Positions 2,677-17,554 of a stretch of 22,322 bases of DNA are shown here, one piece after another (positions within the stretch are counted from its first letter, which is position 1; each line of letters begins with the position of its first letter). The notes under the pieces are model-generated. The model had not been told where the DNA came from. It saw nothing but the letters and a program-made list of their open reading frames with translations, and searched no databases. The DNA is taken from the IMG/VR virus record IMGVR_UViG_3300046460_000278, positions 1 through 22,322 of that record; one strand, given 5' to 3'. The translations under genes were made by a program, and so were the position numbers. This stretch comes from a virus.

Positions 2677-3726
2677 TTATTTTGACGGCCTGGCAATGGC
2701 GCCGACTCGGCGGTATACCCGCTCGGTGATGTCGCCTTTGGTGTGTCCAAGGAGCAGACTCGCCTCACCGACGTCAGTTATTTCTGACGCGGCTTTTGGC
2801 CGGATATCGCGGAACTGAAACTCTCCAATTCTGCCCGCCAGAAGCGTGTCGCCAGCTTCGATGGCTTCCAATCGCGCTGCCTCCCTGGCGACGTCCCAAC
2901 GCTTTCTCAGCATCGTCGCAGTCATTCGCTTACCGTGCCGGTTCACGATCAAATAGCTCGAGAGGTGGTGAGCATTGCGCTCCGTTATCTTCTTGATCAG
3001 TTGCCCCAGGGTATTTGCCAACCCGCCGGCATTGATCTGGATGCGAAGCTTCTTGTGGGTTTTGTTCTGCTGCACCATCAGATAGCCCCCCTCAACGTCA
3101 TCCTTTCGCATAACCAGGACATCTGCCGGCCGCTGACCGGTTAGGTAGGCCAGGTCCATCGCGTCTTTCAGCTCTTGAGTTGCCTTCTTGTAAACCGCAT
3201 CCCAAACAACATCATTCGCGTAATAGTCTCTTGGCGTTTCCTTGTTCTTGCGCACGCCCTGGCAAGGATTTTCTTTGGTTGTCAGACCCCACTCCCGGGC
3301 CATGTTGAACACATGGGAGAGGATGGCGATCTCACGATTCGCCCGCACCTTTGCCGTTCGTGCATCACGGTAACCGGCGATCGTTGCTGGCGTGATTGAG
3401 TCGATAGGGGCGCTGTCGAACATAGGGCGCAGTTGCTTGATCTCTGCCAAGTTGTCCTTCTGAGTGCGCGCAGCTTTCTTGGGAACGATGTCGCGGATGT
3501 ATCGATCGAAGATACCCTTCATTGTGCGCAGATCGAGCGGCTTATCCTTGGCTTCAAGTTCCGCCCATTTGATCCTGGCCAAGTCCAAATCCTTGCCGAG
3601 GGGGATCGCTTTGCCGGTCAGGTCCAGGTAGTAATAGGCGATCCAATCCTTTCCGCTTTTTCGTTGCCGCGTCCACTGGTACATGCGGGGCGGCAAGTTG
3701 CGTGTTTCGGCCTTGCGGGGTCGCAT
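2677..3726 (-). CDS. int: Prophage integrase (tyrosine recombinase)
   Basis: This 349-residue site-specific recombinase catalyses integration and, with an accessory factor, excision at the adjacent tRNA-Ser site. Residues 1-60 form an arm-binding region, about 65-165 a SAM-like core-binding domain, and about 170-349 the catalytic domain. Visible active-site residues are R199 (LTGQRPAD), K222, R309 (FRDIRPK), H328 (LGHTK) and the nucleophile Y338 (ERVYRR). The usual His of the HxxR box is Arg306, a variation I associate with some phage integrases. The gene reads toward attL and starts one base after the stop of the DUF4224 gene, so the two are coupled. Length and residues indicate an active enzyme. 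Confidence 0.93.
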   Translation of the reverse strand: MRPRKAETRNLPPRMYQWTRQRKSGKDWIAYYYLDLTGKAIPLGKDLDLARIKWAELEAKDKPLDLRTMKGIFDRYIRDIVPKKAARTQKDNLAEIKQLRPMFDSAPIDSITPATIAGYRDARTAKVRANREIAILSHVFNMAREWGLTTKENPCQGVRKNKETPRDYYANDVVWDAVYKKATQELKDAMDLAYLTGQRPADVLVMRKDDVEGGYLMVQQNKTHKKLRIQINAGGLANTLGQLIKKITERNAHHLSSYLIVNRHGKRMTATMLRKRWDVAREAARLEAIEAGDTLLAGRIGEFQFRDIRPKAASEITDVGEASLLLGHTKGDITERVYRRVGAIARPSK

Positions 3727-3727
3727 A

Positions 3728-3970
3728 TCAGTTCACTCGCGAGAAGTCGGGGGTCCATGCCGGCACGGCCGGCACCGGGTTGGGATCAGCGACGGTTGGG
3801 GAGACCATGCCCAGTTTCATACGGGCGTATATACGGCCCACCAGCGGGCGCTTGCCGCGGCTCTCGACGAATACCCATTGGCGATCCACCAGCCAACGAC
3901 GCTGGTAAGCCCTTGCCTTGTAGCCGGTGAGCTCCGCGAGCTCTTCGTCCGAGAGAATTTCGGTTTCCAT
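3728..3970 (-). CDS. DUF4224 protein, candidate excisionase/directionality factor
   Basis: This is an 80-residue protein whose first 45 residues match the DUF4224 pattern as I know it: LSDEELAELTGYKA, then QRRWLVDRQW and a short basic strand, a winged-helix-like DNA-binding fold. The C-terminal half is Pro-rich and probably unstructured. GGAG lies upstream of the ATG. Its stop is one base before the integrase start, so both are on one leftward transcript. Small DUF4224 proteins are usual in this slot in Pseudomonas prophages. A role as excisionase is inferred from position and size, not shown. Confidence 0.75.
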   Translation of the reverse strand: METEILSDEELAELTGYKARAYQRRWLVDRQWVFVESRGKRPLVGRIYARMKLGMVSPTVADPNPVPAVPAWTPDFSRVN

Positions 3971-4019
3971 AGCGATACTCCATGCCGCGCGTAGGGGCTC
4001 AAGATAGGTTGAGTTCAGA

Positions 4020-4125
4020 AATTTGGATGATGAGAGAGATACATGCAGAGTGTGTTGCCGCCTTCCGGCCTTCGAAGATGGTGTGCACCATCGGGGGCGA
4101 GAACAAGATCGACCATTCCTTAATT
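4020..4125 (-). pseudogene. Remnant of an ASCH-like phage gene
   Basis: Reading leftward, the translated stretch WSILFSPPMVHTIFEGRK resembles the start of a common Pseudomonas phage protein that begins roughly RPILFSAPMVRAILEGRKTQTRR (recalled from ASCH-domain phage proteins). The similarity then fades into SACISLIIQ with no continuation, and no start codon sits at the expected place. It would be a leftover of the leftward early operon, cut short where the rightward cargo pair now stands. The rest of 3971-4368 has no gene I can support. The call rests on one remembered motif. Confidence 0.4.
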
Positions 4126-4142
4126 TCAGGAATGGCTGTTCT
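4113..4142 (+). terminator. Possible terminator upstream of the ATPase-PIN pair
   Basis: CCATTCCT (4113-4120) pairs perfectly with AGGAATGG (4128-4135) around a 7-base loop, followed by CTGTTCTTTT. The stem is only moderately GC-rich and the T tract is interrupted, so this is a weak call. It might insulate the cargo promoter. Confidence 0.3.
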
Positions 4143-4368
4143 TTTGCCGTTTTTGCAGCCGGCCTGGAAAGGGGAGGGAGTTACTTTTCGTTGATGCGTG
4201 TTACTTCGTCGAGGCACGCAGCGCGTGCGACGCGATGGTTGCAGCTTCGACCCAAGCGAAACGAGCCGAAGGTGTCATAAGATTTTTTGTGTGAAGGAGG
4301 AAGCTTTCCCTGATACCTTTGACCAATAGGTTCAGATGTATCAGTTTTCGTAGCGGGCCGGGGGCTCA

Positions 4369-5664
4369 ATGCACTACTTTAGAAATTTTAAAAATTATTC
4401 AAACGCTCAGATAGACCTGTTCTCTAGTTTTACACTGCTAATCGGAAAGAATGGTAGCGGAAAGTCTAACCTGATCGAAGGTGTGGAACTTCTTGCCGCG
4501 CTTGCTGAAGGACGCCCGCTCCATGAGATGGTCGAGGGAAAAGGCTATGGTGCTAATGCATCTGCAGTGCGTGGCGGCATCCATAGTTGTGTTAAATTTG
4601 GAGAGAAAAATTTCTCTCTAGGGTTTTCAGGTAGTTATAAGTTTGAAGGAAAGGCACAATCATTTGATTATTGTATAACTATCGGAGTTGATCCGTATCC
4701 TTATGTTGTGGGTGAGCATCTGATTGTTGGCTCGAGGAAGATATTTCTGGCGGAGCCTGATGGAGTATCTCGTGACGGCTTGTTGAATGTGCAGTTTGAT
4801 AACTTTGCGCGCGGCGGAAAAAAACCGCAGAAAAAAATATTCGGCGACCGGTCTATAATTTCTCGCTATGAAGAGCTTGTCGAGGCTAGTGAGGCGGGCG
4901 ATAAAGATAGGAAGCTAAAAGCTGTAAAAATGGTAGCGACAATAAAGCGTTATTTGCAATCATCGTTTGTATTTGATCCTAGTCCTAAATTAATGCGCGA
5001 TTACGTTAGGATCGGTCAAAACGTGTTGCTCAAAGATGGATCAAATATTTCCGCTGTACTTTACTCAATGAGGTCGGAATCTGGGGAACTGTCACATCTG
5101 GATAATGTCCTTAATGTGATTCGACAGATTCCGGAAGAACCGTTTCTGGAATTTGATTTTGTAACAACTTCTCGGCATGATGTTTTATTAACACTGATGT
5201 CTGGAGTTAATTCTGTTGATGCTAGGTTGATTTCGGACGGAACTCTGAGGGCGATGGCTGTAATAGCGGCACTTGAATCAATTGGTGAAGGTTCTCGAGT
5301 TGTTATTGAAGAATTTGATAATGGACTACATCCGAGTCGCGCTGCTGTTTTAATTGAGGCTATAGGGGAGGTGGTTGCAAGAAAAAAACTCAACATATTA
5401 CTTTCTACTCATAATCCGGCTAGTTTAAATTCTTTGTCGAGTGAATGGCTTGCAAAGGTCCATGTTTGTTATTGGGATCAAGAGGCTAATTCTTCTAAAT
5501 TGATACGTTTGCTCGACGTCCCAGACGTCGACTCGTTGCTTGAGTCAAAGGGTGGTTTGGGTGATTTGGTAACTCGCTCCGTCTTTGAAAAACATTTGGC
5601 TCCACGCTTTGAGGAAGCAAAGAAAAAAGTAGCCACGGACTGGCTGAGCAGGTTGGGTTCATGA
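4369..5664 (+). CDS. AAA_21-type (ABC/OLD-like) ATPase, putative defence sensor
   Basis: This is a 431-residue SMC/ABC-like P-loop ATPase. It has an N-terminal FRNFKNYSNAQIDL strand, Walker A GKNGSGKS at 26-33, a signature-like ISDGTLRAMAV at 288-298, Walker B VVIEEFDNGLHP at 311-321 and a switch His in LLSTHNP (H348). A variable middle (about 90-280) replaces the SMC coiled coil. The pattern fits the AAA_15/AAA_21 group used as sensors or motors in PARIS, Septu, OLD and retron-linked systems (established for those families). The ATG is the only start after an in-frame stop at 4351 and has a G-rich stretch upstream. The gene is AT-rich relative to its neighbours, reads against the surrounding early operon, and overlaps the PIN gene by 4 bases. 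Its role in phage defence is inferred. Confidence 0.85.
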   Translation: MHYFRNFKNYSNAQIDLFSSFTLLIGKNGSGKSNLIEGVELLAALAEGRPLHEMVEGKGYGANASAVRGGIHSCVKFGEKNFSLGFSGSYKFEGKAQSFDYCITIGVDPYPYVVGEHLIVGSRKIFLAEPDGVSRDGLLNVQFDNFARGGKKPQKKIFGDRSIISRYEELVEASEAGDKDRKLKAVKMVATIKRYLQSSFVFDPSPKLMRDYVRIGQNVLLKDGSNISAVLYSMRSESGELSHLDNVLNVIRQIPEEPFLEFDFVTTSRHDVLLTLMSGVNSVDARLISDGTLRAMAVIAALESIGEGSRVVIEEFDNGLHPSRAAVLIEAIGEVVARKKLNILLSTHNPASLNSLSSEWLAKVHVCYWDQEANSSKLIRLLDVPDVDSLLESKGGLGDLVTRSVFEKHLAPRFEEAKKKVATDWLSRLGS

Positions 5665-6173
5665 GCAAAATTATTCTTCTTGATACTAGTTATCTTCTCG
5701 AGCTATTTAGAGTGCCACACGATTCAGTTGAAGGGCATCATCTGGTCGCAAAAGAGTTAATGACCGAAGCAATTGAGCTTGGGTATGATTTGTACTGCAC
5801 TCTTGGTGTTCTCTACGAGGTTGCGAATCATATCGTGGATGTGAAAAATGTCGAAGTGCAAAGAAGGTTGGCTAGGGAATTTCAAGAGATGGTGACTCTT
5901 GCATGGGAGGAAAACAGTCCGTTTTCAATAGTTCCCAACTCTAGTTCCGCAGAAATTTTGGCGGAGTTTGCCTCGCTTCCTGAACTCTGTGTTAAGTATA
6001 AAGATACTCTTCGGCAAGGTCTGAGTTTGGTGGACTGTACCATCATCGAAGTTGCGTCAAAAATTAAAGTCAACTATGCCGCACGGAAACGGAAATGGGC
6101 GGCGCATATTTGGACTCGACATGGAGAGCTTAAGGCGCTTGAGCCTGACAGATTTCATCATCCCCATTTTTGA
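5661..6173 (+). CDS. PIN-domain nuclease, partner/effector of the ATPase
   Basis: This 170-residue protein has the PIN layout: LLDTSYLLEL at the N-terminus (D8), LYEVANHIV (E53), GLSLVDCTIIEVA (D125, E130) and a terminal strand HIWTRHGELKALEPD. PIN domains are metal-dependent RNases, often toxins. The fourth acidic position, usually Asp in the final T-x-D motif, is His154 here, so activity may be altered or use E130. The ATG overlaps the ATPase stop (ATGA), which implies translational coupling and fixed stoichiometry. There is no small antitoxin beside it, so the ATPase is the likely controller. An ATPase-controlled RNase causing abortive infection is my preferred inference; a conventional VapC toxin is less likely. 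Confidence 0.75.
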   Translation: MSKIILLDTSYLLELFRVPHDSVEGHHLVAKELMTEAIELGYDLYCTLGVLYEVANHIVDVKNVEVQRRLAREFQEMVTLAWEENSPFSIVPNSSSAEILAEFASLPELCVKYKDTLRQGLSLVDCTIIEVASKIKVNYAARKRKWAAHIWTRHGELKALEPDRFHHPHF

Positions 6174-6193
6174 GTATCGAGCTTTTTCTTTAC

Positions 6194-6347
6194 CTACTTG
6201 GCAACCGATGAAGACTCGGAAATAGTCGGTTGCTTTACGCCGCGTCCGCTGGGACCGATGTTCACGACTGCGATGTAGTTGGTGCTAAGCAGCGCCCGGC
6301 AGAGCCGCTCTATCTGGGCGCATGTAGTTGGACTTGCGCTTGTTCAT
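6194..6347 (-). pseudogene. Truncated, frameshifted early phage gene (second of pair)
   Basis: The minus strand reads MNKRKSNYMR, then after a shift of frame QIERLCRALLSTNYIAVVNI GPSGRG, and ends VKQPTISESSSVAK. Restoring a lost GC in the GCGC run near 6315 would join both parts. The start matches a short Pseudomonas early-phage protein that I recall continuing well beyond the GPSGR segment. Here similarity stops at about 6243, where the cargo side begins, so both a frameshift and a truncation are suspected. Its ATG overlaps the previous remnant's stop (ATGA), showing the original operon coupling. Confidence 0.55.
6201..6236 (+). terminator. Hairpin behind the PIN gene, possible terminator
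   Basis: GCAACCGA (6201-6208) pairs perfectly with TCGGTTGC (6226-6233), followed by TTTACG. It lies 28 bases after the PIN stop. The 17-base loop and short T run make it a weak intrinsic terminator, but its position suits the end of the cargo pair. Confidence 0.4.
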
Positions 6348-6577
6348 GGTGATTCCGCGATTTGCCTCAGTGTGATCTGCTCTGCCTGGGATAGGGAAGG
6401 GGGGCGGCGCTTAAGGATGGTATCGAGGTCGATCTTTGTTCGAGCGAGGCGGACGGCTCAGTCATGAATTCGTCAGCTGATTTAGCCTCGCTGCTTGCTC
6501 CGAAGAACTGATCCAGCTACCGGTTCAGATTCGCGATGCTCGCGTTTTTCGGATTAGGGCTTTGGTCCGGCGCTCAT
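6344..6577 (-). pseudogene. Broken early phage gene (first of pair)
   Basis: The start ATG overlaps the stop of the upstream membrane-protein gene (ATGA). The reading is MSAGPKP then a stop. A shift of frame gives NPKNASIANLNR, a TAG stop, LDQFFGASSEAKSADEFMTE and PSASLEQ. A second shift gives IDLDTILKRRPPSLSQAEQI then TLRQIAESP and a stop overlapping the next ATG. Coding character and spacing fit a conserved early gene, but two frameshifts and one nonsense codon break it. Its loss appears tolerated in the lysogen. Confidence 0.6.
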
Positions 6578-6936
6578 CTTGATACTCCCATGAAGGTGAA
6601 GACGGAAAGCATCACAACGAACACGAACGCCCAGCGAGGCATCCATCGGCCCACGTTTGCGACGATGAGATTCGCGGCCTGATTGAAGCGAGCGGTGCTC
6701 TCAAAGTCTTGCGCTGACTTGCACGCGTTCATGTGGCCGACCACCTTCGAACGCACTGTACCGGTCTGGCGATCAACAACGCCAAACAGATTGTTTCCGT
6801 GCGGCACGACGGTGAAGCGCAGGGACATCGTTGAAGCGTTGATCCCAGCCTTTTGGTAGAACTCTGCAGTGGCCATGGTGGCGCGGTTACGCAGCCCGTT
6901 TAGGACGGTGCGGCGTTGTTGAATTTTCGGATTCAT
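6574..6936 (-). CDS. Early phage protein with C-terminal membrane anchor
   Basis: This is a 120-residue protein of unknown function. The first 95 residues are basic and soluble, with a strand-rich middle (RFTVVPHGNNLFGVVDRQTG). Residues about 102-117 (WAFVFVVMLSVFTFMGV) form a single hydrophobic segment at the extreme C-terminus, giving a tail-anchored topology with the body in the cytoplasm. GGAGAGG just before the ATG is a strong ribosome binding site. It lies in the leftward early operon below the LuxR-type gene and was translationally coupled (ATGA) to the broken gene after it. A role in excluding other phages or altering the membrane is possible but unsupported. Confidence 0.65.
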   Translation of the reverse strand: MNPKIQQRRTVLNGLRNRATMATAEFYQKAGINASTMSLRFTVVPHGNNLFGVVDRQTGTVRSKVVGHMNACKSAQDFESTARFNQAANLIVANVGRWMPRWAFVFVVMLSVFTFMGVSR

Positions 6937-8073: not shown

Positions 8074-8200
8074 GTGCTATTCGCGCTTGTGCGCTGCACC
8101 AGATGCGGGTCGTTACGAAGGGCTCTGGTGCGGGCGTTGCCTACGAAGGGGATCGCAGGCGCACCTAAGGAACAAAGTAAATTTGATCTTGATTAATTGA
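8074..8200 (+). pseudogene. Frameshifted small zinc-ribbon ORF
   Basis: Immediately after DUF1654, one frame encodes LFALVRCTRCGS (CxxC; Cys codons at 8095 and 8104) and a second frame, one base off, encodes YEGLWCGRCLRRGSQAHL (CxxC; Cys codons at 8129 and 8138), ending with a stop at 8198-8200. Adding one base near 8113 would restore a CxxC-x(n)-CxxC zinc-ribbon protein of about 40 residues. The end overlaps the 3' end of the opposing GHKL gene, so the tail may not be original. It could be a true pseudogene or a sequencing error. Confidence 0.4.
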
Positions 8201-10253
8201 CGGTGGAAGACAATTCTGAAACAAGCTCCGATTGGGTGAGGCTCGACAGGTCTTTTCTTTGTGTCTTCAACCTTTCCAACAGAAAGTCACTTGTTAATTT
8301 GAACTCATCGAATATCCTTGGCCAAGTCTTGATGTAGGTTTTTATCTTGTCAGTGTTGTTGACTATTCCTGGCTCACCATGAATTTTGTTTGATTCAATT
8401 CGCTGGTGGATATTAAATGCTTCATCTGAGATGTTTCGACCGATTAAAAGCAGTTCAAATTTTGTAAGATCACTATTAAATGCTGGATATTTACTTAAAA
8501 TTGAAGCGTATCGATCTAGTTGTTGAAGGTGCTTGTCGTTAAGCGATACACCAGGGCGCTTAATTTCGACAATGACGCATCGAAAGTATTGTCTTCCATG
8601 AGAATCGAATTGCGGCTGCCTACGGATTAGCAATAAGTCAACCTGTTTGTTTGCTCCATCAATCGTGACGCCATCAGCCAAATCGCCGACATCGATGCCG
8701 CCGATATCTTTGATTTCTGATCTAAGGTTTTCAGCTATTTTAGTGAAGCTGTCTTCTTCGGCGCCTAGGATTGCGTAAGAAGCGCCGAATAACCAGGTAT
8801 TATTCTCGATTATACCTTGTAGGTGTGGTGTTTCTTTTACGTCCTTATAGTGGACATTCATAATTTCTTCAATTTGAGCTATTGCATGCTCTCGCTTTTG
8901 CAATACTTCGATCGTGTTGATTATGTTTTCGAGTTTTGTTTGTTTCAACTGAGTGGCAAATTTTTTCATAGCGGATGCATCCAAGTCTAGAATGCTTTCA
9001 ATTACATCGAGTATTCCGCTATTTTCGTTGGATACAGACAGTCTGTCCAGTAATCTTATTATTACTTTGCGCTGTTTCTTATTGCTATTAATTAGTAAGG
9101 TTGGTTCTTTTATGATTATGTGTCGAACGATATCTTTAACATAGCTAAGCCGCCATTCCCGCTCCGCCGGTCCAAGCTCGGAGTGATCAGGAAAGTCTCC
9201 TTCGATCTCATACTTCTTAACCTGCTCGTCAGCCTGTTCCACTAGAAATTCAGCATAATTTTTTGCAATCATGCTTTTTACTTCCTTTTCCAGCATGCGA
9301 CCTGCTTTGCTGGATAGGAATGAGTCGAATGGCTCGCTAAGAGCTTCGCTGCCTGGCGTATAGCGGTCAAATATTTCCGATGTAACGTATATGCTTATAT
9401 AATATTCAGGCTTATTATTTCCAGAGCTATGCTTCTTGTGAAGGACTCGCCCGTCTTGGTTTGCGAAATATGTCCAGGATTTATCGTTGCCAGGCTTTTC
9501 GTACCATCGGATCAGTTTAATATCAAAATTTTTGTTTTCTATTGTTACAGGGTGGGCAAATTCTAGGTGACGCGGAGGTTCAATCAATTTTTCGTCTAAC
9601 CAAAGCCGTCTTTGCGGCTTTAGGATAAAGTGAGCTCCGAACTCTTTGCTAAAATCCCTTGCAAGTTCCGAGCTCGGGGGTAGATTTTTGGCGAATTCAA
9701 GGAGCTCTACACATGTGCCTTTTTCGGATCCGGAAAGCAGCGCGTGAGTCGATCCCGGCAAAGCATTTTTTCCGGTAACTTTGCTTAGGTTAGAGCTGCT
9801 TATAGAAATAATAGCGTCTTCGCCCTGGTGTCGTGTATACCATGTGGCTAGATTGCATATTTTACTGAAGCTAAGTCTACCTCTACCATGTGACCCATGA
9901 GTGTCATATGAGGTGACTTTTAAAGAGTCGTTGAAACGCTTAAAGTTATTTGTGGACTTTCGGAACTCGATACCATTCCCGTCGTCCAGGATGGTCACAG
10001 ATTCAGTTCCATCTGCAGCAGTTTCGTGAATCGAAATCCGTACTTCAGTTGCATCAGCATCGAACCCATTCCAGATTAACTCTGCAATCGCCTGCCATGG
10101 CTTTACGTTTTTAAAGTGTTTTGCTATACCGTCATGGGTAATAGTGTTTGAGCCAGAGAAATCATATAAGGAAAATTCCGTTTCCACGACGCTACTCCAA
10201 AGTTCAGAAAGGGATGTGTTAATAGTTATGTTTAAAGCAGGTGAGCATTCCAC
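8193..10253 (-). CDS. GHKL ATPase fused to PD-(D/E)XK (Shedu-like) nuclease
   Basis: This is a 686-residue two-part protein. The N-terminal GHKL (Hsp90/MutL/MORC-type) ATPase shows an N box ELIWNGFDADA (E58, N62, D65), DDGNG at 90-94 and SHGRGRLS at 121-128. A linker of about 250 residues follows, with a likely coiled coil near 430-465. The C-terminus looks like a DUF4263-type PD-(D/E)XK nuclease: IIENNTWLFG (481-490), QVDLLLI (D539), VIVEIKRP (E563, K565) and QQLDRY (577-582). The listed start is GTG at 10253, overlapping the repressor gene by 22 bases. An alternative GTG at 10187 has GGAG 7 bases upstream and keeps every motif. The gene is AT-rich and probably co-transcribed with the repressor. 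Anti-phage function is inferred. Confidence 0.85.
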   Translation of the reverse strand: MECSPALNITINTSLSELWSSVVETEFSLYDFSGSNTITHDGIAKHFKNVKPWQAIAELIWNGFDADATEVRISIHETAADGTESVTILDDGNGIEFRKSTNNFKRFNDSLKVTSYDTHGSHGRGRLSFSKICNLATWYTRHQGEDAIISISSSNLSKVTGKNALPGSTHALLSGSEKGTCVELLEFAKNLPPSSELARDFSKEFGAHFILKPQRRLWLDEKLIEPPRHLEFAHPVTIENKNFDIKLIRWYEKPGNDKSWTYFANQDGRVLHKKHSSGNNKPEYYISIYVTSEIFDRYTPGSEALSEPFDSFLSSKAGRMLEKEVKSMIAKNYAEFLVEQADEQVKKYEIEGDFPDHSELGPAEREWRLSYVKDIVRHIIIKEPTLLINSNKKQRKVIIRLLDRLSVSNENSGILDVIESILDLDASAMKKFATQLKQTKLENIINTIEVLQKREHAIAQIEEIMNVHYKDVKETPHLQGIIENNTWLFGASYAILGAEEDSFTKIAENLRSEIKDIGGIDVGDLADGVTIDGANKQVDLLLIRRQPQFDSHGRQYFRCVIVEIKRPGVSLNDKHLQQLDRYASILSKYPAFNSDLTKFELLLIGRNISDEAFNIHQRIESNKIHGEPGIVNNTDKIKTYIKTWPRIFDEFKLTSDFLLERLKTQRKDLSSLTQSELVSELSSTVN

Positions 10254-13749: not shown

Positions 13750-13958
13750 TGGACTCTCAGCGACTCGCTGTTCCAAATCCGGCCACCTACCGCTTCGCGG
13801 TGTTCTGCTGCTCTTTCAAGATGGAGTTGGGTAGCACCCCGGACCATGCCTTGGCCCTGTTCGCCGACGAGGCCATGGCCAAGCGTTATGGTGCGTGGAT
13901 GTGGCCTTCAACGTTTGAGGTAGTGGACCGTCTCGCCCAACCGGAGGCGACCGATTGA
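13749..13958 (+). CDS. Small hypothetical protein between helicase and recombinase
   Basis: This is a 69-residue protein with no recognised domain. The middle (FAVFCCSFKMELGSTPDHAL, ALFADEAMAKRYGAWMWP) looks like a compact alpha/beta fold with an aromatic-rich end. It begins on the last base of the helicase gene and ends within the start codon region of the recombinase gene, so it is embedded in a tightly coupled operon. The coding-like composition and both overlaps support translation. Function is unknown. Confidence 0.65.
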   Translation: MDSQRLAVPNPATYRFAVFCCSFKMELGSTPDHALALFADEAMAKRYGAWMWPSTFEVVDRLAQPEATD

Positions 13959-15283
13959 GCACCTTGATCAAGACCCTGACCGTGAAACTGTCAGACGCTG
14001 AGATTCAGCGCAACGCCAGGCTCGAGCATGTGCGTGACCTGCGTGATGCCAGTCACCCCGCGTTGCATTTCCGTTATGCGAAGAATCGCACGCGTGGCTC
14101 CTGGTATCTGCTGAATAAGCGTCAGTGGCACCGCATCGGCGGATTTCCCGACCTGAGCACCAAGCAGGTGGTTGCAGCGTTACCGGCAGTGCGTTTGCGA
14201 GTGGCGGCCGATGGTGCCGCCAGCGTTTCGGGTTGGGTAACCGTCGGCGAACTGCTGGACTGGTTTGGCGATCGCATGGCGCGCTCGCGCGCTCTGTCCG
14301 CCAAGCGCCGTTCCGCGAGCAAGTCAGCCATCAGTTGCCAGCTTAAGCCGCGCCTGGGTGATCTGCTGATTCGTGACGTCAACGCCCAGACCCTGGACAA
14401 GCTGCTGATGTGGCCGGCTCAGGCAGAGTTGTCGCTGTCGTACGTCCAGCAGTTGTACCGACTGCTCGCGGTGGCCTTTCGTCAGGCCCGTAAGCTCGAT
14501 CTGATTCCAGCCAACCCGATGGCGGAGCTCAAGTTCATCAACTTCACGACGGCGCGCATCCTGCCCAAGCCTGCCCGTCTGCGCGATGTCCAGGTGCCCG
14601 AATTGGTGGAGCAGTTGGCGGAGCGATTCGTGACTGCGCCGGGTGACGCCATGCTGGCCCTGATGATGCTGTGCCACGGGACCCGCATTGGCGAAACGCG
14701 TCAGTCGCGCTGGGCCGATATTGCGTTGCCTGAGCGTGAGTGGTACCTGCCGGCCGAGCACACCAAGAGCAAGACCGAGCTGCGGGTGCCACTGACCGAC
14801 CAAGTCTGCGCGTTGCTGCGCCGCTACCGAGAGCGGCAGACCGCGCAAGGTTACGAGGGACCGTTTCTGTTCCCGTCTCGCCGAGGCAAGCCGCTCAGCG
14901 ATAACCAGGCCAGTGCCGTGTTCACCCGATTGGGGCAGGGCGCCTGGACCAGTCACGACCTGCGCAAGGTGGCCCGTACCGCCTGGACTGACCTCGGCGT
15001 CGACGGGCATATCGGCGAGATGCTGTTGAACCACTCCCTGGGCAAGATCGCTTCAACCTACATCAATACCCAGGCCAAGGAGCAGCGTCGGCTAGCGCTG
15101 GTGAAGTGGCACAACTGGTTAGATGAGCGCGGCTTCAAGGCGATTCATGAGCAGACAGGCGCTAGATATGAGGATTCGCAAAACCTCGTAGACGCCTTGA
15201 ACGGCAGCGTCTGCGAGTCGATCCCGCAATTTGTTAAGGGCGAGGTTTTAAACCATGCAGAAAAGACCAATGCCTGGCTTTGA
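13955..15283 (+). CDS. Second tyrosine recombinase, in the replication module
   Basis: This is a 442-residue recombinase with all catalytic residues: R244 (CHGTRIGETR), K271/K273 (HTKSKTELR), H334 and R337 (SHDLRKVAR), H360 (LLNHSLG) and Y369 (STYIN). N-terminal residues 36-65 look like an arm-binding domain (FRYAKNRTRGSWYLLNKRQW) and about 95-190 like the core-binding domain. It differs clearly from the 349-residue integrase at the left end. The TTG start is supported by GGAGG 8 bases upstream. It sits between the replication genes and the antiterminator and would be expressed in lytic growth, so its job may be excision, dimer resolution or inversion rather than lysogenic integration. Confidence 0.9.
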   Translation: MSTLIKTLTVKLSDAEIQRNARLEHVRDLRDASHPALHFRYAKNRTRGSWYLLNKRQWHRIGGFPDLSTKQVVAALPAVRLRVAADGAASVSGWVTVGELLDWFGDRMARSRALSAKRRSASKSAISCQLKPRLGDLLIRDVNAQTLDKLLMWPAQAELSLSYVQQLYRLLAVAFRQARKLDLIPANPMAELKFINFTTARILPKPARLRDVQVPELVEQLAERFVTAPGDAMLALMMLCHGTRIGETRQSRWADIALPEREWYLPAEHTKSKTELRVPLTDQVCALLRRYRERQTAQGYEGPFLFPSRRGKPLSDNQASAVFTRLGQGAWTSHDLRKVARTAWTDLGVDGHIGEMLLNHSLGKIASTYINTQAKEQRRLALVKWHNWLDERGFKAIHEQTGARYEDSQNLVDALNGSVCESIPQFVKGEVLNHAEKTNAWL

Positions 15284-16015: not shown

Positions 16016-17554
16016 TTACTCGGATTTCGAGGGTGTGGGGACTGGTGACTTTCGCATATCCCTAAAGGCTTTATCTTCGTCTTTGCCACTGTAGGAGTTT
16101 AGCTCCATGGCTGCGCAAAAAAGAACGTCGCGGACTATTTGTTCAGAGAGTTTTCGGATTTCAGAATAAGAGTTAAGTCGATCGTATTGGGTGCCATGCA
16201 GTATTTTTGAGCGACCTGCGTTATAAACATCTTCAATCAATTTTCTTAGTGTTCTTGGGTTTGTACCTTTTGTCACGATTTTGTCTTGGGGAGTATCTAA
16301 TAGGTTGGACGTCATATCAAGAATACCACCGGCTTTTCCGCCATTACACAACACGTCCAAGCTTGTTCCCATTTTTGCGACTGCGATGGCGTCGCTAGTT
16401 TCACGGCAACCCTCCGCGTACCAGTCAAGTGCTGTGGCCCAGCGATTCGAGAGTTCCGGGTGAGCACTGGAACTTGGGTCACTTATCGCGGTGAGTATCT
16501 TGGCTACGGCTGCAATATAAGGCGCTATTGATGCTGCTGCTCTTTGCGCCTTTGTAGCGGGAATGTTGCGAATCATTTTTCCTAAAGACATTCCGGGAAG
16601 GCTGTCGAATATGCCATTTTTACTCGTGATGGTAGTTTTGCTAACTGCTGGGAGACGCTCTCCATTGAGCGTTTGTTGGAAGAAATAATTTGGTGAATTA
16701 AGTCCTAATGAAATTGCATCCAAGGCTGACTTGGCTATAATTTCAGCCAGTTTTCTTGACATTTCACGCTCATAACCATCGATAGTTACACTAACAATAG
16801 CTGGGTGTCTTGCAATTGATTCATATATTGTGTTGGTGAAGAAACCACCTTTGGGAGCAGGGCTTTTTGGATCTTTCAATATGTCTTTTATATCCTCCCT
16901 CCAACTGGAGTTTTCATTAGGGTTTCCATTTGAGTCTATTTTTTGGGATTCTGGGAGATCGATTGAGTCAAGCCAGTCAAATCGATTTTGAATTGTTACT
17001 GGTCCTATGGTGTAAGCTGTTTCAGCTTCAATCCCTAATGTCCCCGCAGGAAAGTGGTGTGTGAGTTTTGAAACTCTATTTGTTACAAGTTTTTCAACTC
17101 TTTCTGTTAATTCATTTTTTAGATCTAATCCTTCTTTTAGAGAAAGTCGACTTGCTGCGCCGTTTACGTATAGTTCGGATATCTCTTGGTGGACAAATTT
17201 GTAGTACAGCTCTTTGTCTACGCGTATGGGGCTTTTTCGGTTGATATGCAGTAGGTGTGTAATATTAACTATAAGTGAGTTTGCCTTGCTGCTGAAGTTC
17301 ACAACTCCTTTTGAAGTTGTTGTGAAGTTGAGTGCGATAGCGGCATATGCTGTAGGGTCGCTTGTGACTGATACCTTGTGAATGATATCCATTTCATTGA
17401 AAAACTCTCTTATTGTTTCCAGAAGATCCATGTTTTGCTCGCGCTTTTTGATTGGTAATTTATAAGTTGTTGAAAGTCGTACGTGGGCGTCCTTTTGAGC
17501 AATAGCAGACTGCTCTCCAATGTGAGGTGCCGCGGATTCAATTTTGAAGGACAC
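16016..17554 (-). CDS. HEPN-domain (Apea-like) protein, putative abortive-infection RNase
   Basis: This is a 512-residue protein. The C-terminal third (about 370-485) is helical and contains YNAGRSKILHGTQYDRL with R448-x4-H453, the HEPN RNase signature; the layout resembles Apea-like HEPN proteins. The first 350 residues match nothing I recognise and may be the sensor. The start at 17554 is GTG with no clear ribosome binding site; ATG at 17431 (residue 42) is an alternative that keeps all domains. TATAAA at 17605-17600 is a plausible -10 for its own promoter. It is AT-rich, reads against the late genes, and has its own terminator, all marks of a cargo gene. RNase activity and defence are inferred. 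Confidence 0.72.
   Translation of the reverse strand: MSFKIESAAPHIGEQSAIAQKDAHVRLSTTYKLPIKKREQNMDLLETIREFFNEMDIIHKVSVTSDPTAYAAIALNFTTTSKGVVNFSSKANSLIVNITHLLHINRKSPIRVDKELYYKFVHQEISELYVNGAASRLSLKEGLDLKNELTERVEKLVTNRVSKLTHHFPAGTLGIEAETAYTIGPVTIQNRFDWLDSIDLPESQKIDSNGNPNENSSWREDIKDILKDPKSPAPKGGFFTNTIYESIARHPAIVSVTIDGYEREMSRKLAEIIAKSALDAISLGLNSPNYFFQQTLNGERLPAVSKTTITSKNGIFDSLPGMSLGKMIRNIPATKAQRAAASIAPYIAAVAKILTAISDPSSSAHPELSNRWATALDWYAEGCRETSDAIAVAKMGTSLDVLCNGGKAGGILDMTSNLLDTPQDKIVTKGTNPRTLRKLIEDVYNAGRSKILHGTQYDRLNSYSEIRKLSEQIVRDVLFCAAMELNSYSGKDEDKAFRDMRKSPVPTPSKSE

Follow-up and report, generated by a model that had tools for sequence, protein, structure and literature searches.

A virus record of 22,322 bases (hereafter the window, meaning the whole stretch of DNA that was analysed) carries an ATPase gene whose end overlaps the gene of a small PIN-domain protein, raising the question of what such a pair does in a prophage and whether it belongs to a system that is already known. 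The window is that of a Pseudomonas-type prophage: Megablast matched it to 44 phage records, of which 43 are Pseudomonas phages, with the terminase gene matching at 72.5% over 8% of the window among the 15 matches listed for these 44 records, and Pfam identified a DUF1654 gene. A preliminary description had proposed that the pair constitutes an undescribed two-gene defence system. Our analysis supports a conserved ATPase-PIN module in defence-type context, for which a defence role is the probable reading, but it does not support the word undescribed, since the pair matches both components of the candidate PDC-M07 (PADLOC-DB 2.0.0, 2023) and dyads of OLD-ABC ATPases with PIN proteins are in print (PMC12839542).

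Both genes lie on the plus strand. The first (4369..5664) encodes an OLD/Rad50-type ABC ATPase of 431 amino acids and the second (5661..6173) a PIN-domain nuclease of 170 amino acids, the start of the latter falling on the stop of the former in a 4-base ATGA overlap (5661..5664), which bears out the translational coupling read earlier. Beside this cargo slot, on the minus strand, are a tyrosine integrase (2677..3726; Pfam Phage_integrase, 9.4e-13; phrog_1) and a small ORF (3728..3970; Pfam DUF4224, 1e-11) that, from its position, we take to be xis-like. Between the xis-like gene and the pair a pattern scan found a weak terminator-like hairpin, readable on both strands (4112..4136); the region 3900-6600 held five such sites against 2.7 expected by chance, while a promoter scan gave five sites against 3.2 expected, none of them upstream of the pair. 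The GC content is 0.43 over the pair versus 0.56 in the flanking kilobase on each side. The orientation of the pair is opposite to that of the integrase, xis-like and repressor genes (minus) and agrees with that of the replication genes (plus), so that its described inversion relative to the early operon holds for the leftward genes and fails for the replication genes. In line with the preliminary description, no separate antitoxin was found: none of five small ORFs around the pair has a Pfam match at E up to 1.

The variability of this slot was surveyed in the best 80 of 226 viral loci (L127-L206), whose integrases are 84-96% identical to that of the window. A homologue of the xis-like gene is present in 78 of these 80 loci, whereas the PIN profile matched in none of them, mostly with 8 kb scanned upstream, and other ATPases gave weak matches in two. 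The slot gene, picked mechanically as the nearest ORF of at least 130 amino acids upstream of the xis-like gene, is AT-rich (GC <0.50) and opposite to the integrase in 21 of the best 80 loci, as it is in the window. These 21 genes include AbiP/putAbiC-like, PIN_12 (three), RelA_SpoT (one), DUF4145, AAA_21, PDC-S31 and PDC-S33 members, and such variety among AT-rich inverted genes indicates that the slot is a variable cargo site, partly defence-like, in agreement with the earlier view of the pair as AT-rich prophage cargo. The pair itself recurs in two other IMG/VR records, L002 (78% identity for the ATPase, 67% for the PIN protein) and L003 (77% and 68%). Next to its pair, L003 has an integrase with 56% identity to that of the window; the integrase-like ORF of L002 has no significant match to the window integrase.

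Several other genes of the window are worth recording. A second tyrosine-recombinase-like gene (13955-15283, plus; phrog_1, 1.3e-53) follows a DnaB-like helicase gene. An AT-rich gene at 8193-10253 (minus; phrog_6203) encodes a 686-aa protein in which Pfam finds a GHKL ATPase domain (HATPase_c_3, 3.3e-19) and, at the C-terminus, a weak match to HSDR_N_2 (0.012). Since the start of this gene and the end of the S24 repressor gene overlap, the lysogen may express it, and by eye the protein resembles the GHKL-Shedu layout of VcSduA as given in excerpts of PMC12137116. A 512-aa AT-rich cargo protein (16016-17554, minus; phrog_38039) is 29% identical to a 'HEPN domain-containing' protein of Acinetobacter phage vB_AbaSI_5 and shows, on inspection by eye, an R-x4-H motif close to the C-terminus, making it a possible third defence gene of this prophage.

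The ATPase carries all the motifs that had been ascribed to it, namely a Walker A (G26-K-N-G-S-G-K32-S), a signature-like S289-D-G-T, a Walker B with E314-E315 and a switch H348, and it belongs to Pfam AAA_21 (1e-20). Its match to PDC-M07A (2.9e-102, 340.9 bits) extends over residues 4-429 and profile positions 7-427 of 432, the next-best PADLOC family being HEC-01A (1.1e-28); the AriA (5.4e-24) and AbiLi (1.5e-20) profiles match more weakly. In an alignment of 58 pairs, in which at least one plasmid appears twice (L006, L093), the S-D-G-T and the switch His are present in all 58, and the Walker A Lys in all 57 rows that have a letter there. An AlphaFold2 model (pLDDT 85, pTM 0.83) is most similar to Rad50 (Z 19.9, rmsd 4.0 over 279 residues) and SMC heads (19.1), followed by PtuA of retron Ec78 (18.6) and of Septu (18.5), with some of these rows tied. 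Among phage records the ATPase has only three relatives, at 25-31% identity and no more than 77% coverage.

The Pfam PIN match of the second protein (3.3e-4) scores 21.7 bits, just below the cut-off of 23.6, and the assignment was therefore settled by fold. Its AlphaFold2 model (pLDDT 83, pTM 0.80) finds its best matches in VapC toxins, including 5x3t_B (Z 12.8, rmsd 2.8 Å, 132 residues) and VapC20 (5wzf_B; Z 12.3, rmsd 2.7, 130 residues), the latter a sarcin-ricin-loop cleaver by its entry title. Six PADLOC profiles match at E up to 1 and all are PDC-M07B (4.6e-32, residues 5-167). The acidic residues D8 and D125 are where the preliminary description placed them, the third being E53, and the three columns are retained in 54 of 55, 56 of 58 and 56 of 57 letters for D8, D125 and E53, respectively. 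As a single query the PIN protein found no viral relative and no match in phage or plasmid records at E 1e-3, and an alignment query returned the same two contigs as the ATPase search; no E. coli match was found, and its sequence has no relative in the PDB beyond one chance-level row. Two homologues depart from the usual residues: that of an Anabaena plasmid (L009, 6244-6726) has Tyr in place of D8, and that of a Magnetococcales genome (L019, 7900-8376) lacks equivalents of E53 and D125, which we counted against the defence reading.

The company of the two genes was followed from either side. A genome scan from the ATPase side yielded at least 38 loci, which were scored with profiles derived from nine pairs of window, viral and plasmid origin (alignments A3 and A4). 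Among the matches listed, 15 exceed 300 bits on the ATPase profile, and all 14 of those with readable downstream DNA have a PIN-family ORF downstream, versus none of 22 distant AAA_21 loci (51-117 bits), 20 of which offer at least 500 bases downstream and two (L042, L045) fewer. The 14 include L018, counted as PIN-bearing from a fragment covering model positions 100-161 (the C-terminal part), and L019, a weak match of 39 bits; L028 (contig end) and L032 (an ATPase fragment, 173 bits) stand outside the count. That L018 has no more than a PIN fragment was likewise counted against the defence reading. From the PIN side, where regions were picked with no regard to the ATPase, the latter is directly upstream on the same strand in 35 of the 38 further regions examined, the other three (L101, L108, L125) having the PIN gene at a contig end, with two short PIN fragments in genome G687 left out. 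The ATPase-PIN module is thus near-obligate. Across its members the genes travel together, overlap or nearly so (out of 62 rows, which include redundant ones, 19 have a spacing of -4 and 16 one of -8), co-diverge, and keep the ATP-binding and most nuclease residues. For the 58 pairs the PIN and ATPase distances correlate with r 0.85, a value reached in none of 1000 permutations (maximum 0.16); this includes shared ancestry and so speaks for co-transmission, not for contact.

Carriage of the module extends over prophages, plasmids and type I restriction operons, the PIN-bearing plasmid pairs coming from Dolichospermum, Anabaena, Vibrio, Photobacterium, Acinetobacter, Lactococcus and Segatella. 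With the centre genome included in every count, the PIN gene is present in 4 of 369 genomes for the class to which a Halomonas genome belongs, in 35 of 388 for the class of a cyanobacterium, and in 1 of 395 for the class of a Cyclobacterium. Two ATPase relatives have other company. In Brasilonema (L013) a PDC-M07A-like ATPase (2.9e-68) is followed by a 193-aa protein (5221-5799) that has no Pfam or PADLOC match and is unrelated by profile comparison as well; this was counted against the defence reading, and the partner may represent an effector swap. A relative on a K. pneumoniae plasmid (L015, 25% identity) is without a PIN gene.

A recurrent context of the pair is the type I restriction operon. 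Plasmids L007 and L008 have the order hsdM-hsdS-ATPase-PIN-hsdR-SprT, as does L010, which bears the same plasmid name as L008; hsdM, hsdS, ATPase, PIN and hsdR also follow one another in L022 (Halomonas), L089, L096, L099 and L100, and L098 has the same order as far as its contig end. The pair therefore lies repeatedly between hsdS and hsdR of type I operons in Gammaproteobacteria and Cyanobacteria. Other arrangements occur in L020 (Myxococcales; pair between an hsdR-like gene and hsdM), L023 (pair inverted, between hsdR and hsdS/hsdM) and L027 (pair downstream of hsdS and hsdR), and an HsdM-like gene alone is near the pair in L121. Among the matches listed, type I genes are near the pair in 5 of the 38 regions reached from the PIN side and in 4 of the 14 loci reached from the ATPase side, whereas none of 20 control windows, each 16.4 kb long and taken from 11 of the cyanobacterial genomes concerned, contains Hsd genes. 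They do occur at 2 of the 22 listed control loci of non-M07 AAA_21 ATPases (L040, L042), so type I company is not unique to M07. The Hsd queries included proteins from L020, L023, L027 and L042, and queries from L007 alone had returned Hsd genes in the same loci. For 79 neighbours of 14 pairs, the commonest PADLOC families are of type I restriction, with two or three proteins each; the Pfam tally includes housekeeping genes, and by these tallies most neighbours are not defence genes, which we counted against a defence role. The PDC candidates reportedly stem from the 'guilt-by-embedding' survey of Payne et al. (bioRxiv, 2024; 10.1101/2024.01.29.577857), and embedding among hsd genes is therefore not fully independent of the PADLOC label. 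According to excerpts of PMC10440598, type I restriction operons also harbour RloB. The neighbour survey suggested earlier thus returned both conserved coupling and, in these operons and on mobile elements, defence-type context.

Taken together, the pair is a prophage-borne member of the candidate family PDC-M07 that probably acts in abortive infection. The PDC-M07 profiles, the co-occurrence and co-divergence of the genes, the VapC-like fold of one product and the Rad50/SMC/PtuA fold of the other all count for this reading, as do the hsdS-pair-hsdR order, the nature of the slot cargo and the precedents of WonAB and PARIS. We envisage that the ATPase would dimerise like Rad50, OLD and PtuA proteins, restrain the PIN protein and sense some consequence of infection; the trigger would then cause an ATP-dependent rearrangement that sets the PIN domain free to cleave tRNA or rRNA, and the resulting arrest of translation would leave the incoming phage unable to finish. 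Presumably the lysogen, and hence the prophage, would be protected in this way from competing phages. The repeated siting between hsdS and hsdR suggests a possible trigger, namely restriction that is lost or inhibited. One could speculate further, with considerable doubt, that PDC-M07 is a back-up restriction guard in which the ATPase senses failure or inhibition of the type I enzyme (compare AriA and Ocr) and fires a translation-ending PIN ribonuclease, prophages having adopted it as a stand-alone weapon with an altered active site (Asp to His in motif IV).

The main rival to abortive infection is a toxin-antitoxin role in prophage upkeep, with the ATPase neutralising a PIN toxin that prophage loss would set free. 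The PIN/VapC fold fits such a role, as does carriage on prophages and plasmids, and we keep it in view because toxins of the RNase-like and TOPRIM kinds were neutralised in E. coli by AAA ATPases, and the AAA/RNase-like toxin pair AarT:AAA of Acinetobacter guerrae conferred no protection from E. coli phages (PMC10440598, in excerpt). The latter result was also counted against a defence role, although AarT:AAA is, by its description, probably not a member of PDC-M07, its toxin being said in the same excerpts to lack an HHpred hit and to have an mRNA-interferase fold. We nevertheless consider upkeep unlikely: an ABC enzyme of this size whose catalytic residues are conserved exceeds the needs of neutralisation, the pair is repeatedly sited inside restriction operons, and the toxicity of WonAB requires its ATPase (PMC12137116, in excerpt).

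A second rival concerns the effector itself, which in the prophage might be altered or decaying, binding RNA and cutting it poorly. The motif-IV Asp is present in 52 of 57 letters, and His replaces it in just three of the 58 rows, those of the window, L002 and L003, which make up the whole prophage clade (3/3). Judged from the alignment, this His could weaken PIN catalysis, and it was counted against the abortive-infection reading. However, D8, E53 and D125 are intact, and the presence of His in three divergent copies indicates that the change is maintained. The dN/dS between L002 and L003 is about 0.02 for both genes (0.022 for the ATPase, 0.025 for the PIN protein) at a dS of 2.0-2.6, near saturation, comparisons with the window being saturated. 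Decay is thus improbable. Most improbable of all is that the pair forms a RecF/Rad50-like nuclease complex serving DNA repair or phage recombination and not defence. Although Rad50 and SMC heads are the best fold matches of the ATPase and RecF-like profiles match its N-terminus, the module has the patchy spread given above, is AT-rich mobile cargo and is partnered by a VapC-like PIN protein.

How, then, does the pair compare with known systems? By sequence comparison it is the catalogued defence candidate PDC-M07 and not a new architecture: both proteins match near full length, the genes are adjacent on one strand, and relatives share their order and close spacing. The window clade differs by the His at PIN motif IV. 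The preliminary description would have given way to a named, characterised system. A named candidate exists, but our full-text literature search found neither a paper naming PDC-M07 nor a functional test of it or of the present pair, which we counted against the defence reading. What is new here is a prophage member of an already listed candidate kind, together with its motif-IV change.

The same stated architecture appears in a 2026 survey of OLD-ABC ATPases paired with PIN endoRNases, whose dyads lie in BREX neighbourhoods, the likeness being one of described layout (PMC12839542, in excerpt). PIN ribonucleases are needed for phage defence in DS-3 and DS-5 of DefensePredictor, yet as excerpted DS-3 is one protein and DS-5 pairs with a DUF5830/AcrIF4-like protein, neither with an ABC ATPase (PMC13092281). 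Membership of VapBC was rejected, for while the PIN/VapC fold is present, the neighbour is a 431-aa ATPase and no small VapB gene was found among the five small ORFs around the pair. The ATPase fold is shared with the PtuAB of Septu and retrons, but PtuB is an HNH nuclease and the partner here a PIN fold, so Septu was rejected as well; no reverse transcriptase is among the window proteins scanned. PARIS (AriA/AriB) and AbiL/RloAB likewise combine an AAA_21/OLD ATPase with a separate nuclease gene, and in PARIS, as stated in excerpts of PMC12839542, AriA detects the DNA mimic Ocr and activates AriB, which leads to cutting of host tRNA. Their effectors are TOPRIM or TOPRIM-like, however, and PARIS membership was rejected because the partner is a PDC-M07B PIN fold and not a TOPRIM AriB.

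The closest tested analogue by layout is WonAB of the V. cholerae WASA-1 prophage, a two-gene system in which an OLD-like ABC ATPase and a small nuclease shut down translation; as excerpted, its nuclease depends on the ATPase for toxicity and the genomic DNA remains intact, the suggested target being rRNA or tRNA (PMC12137116). WonB is a PD-(D/E)xK variant in contrast to the PIN fold with D8, E53 and D125 found in the window, and membership of WonAB was rejected on this ground. To a specialist the architecture itself will be no surprise. The VapC-like PIN ribonuclease would be a further kind of nuclease added to the OLD/AAA_21 ATPase switches behind PARIS, Septu and WonAB, and the pair described here is a compact prophage example of it.
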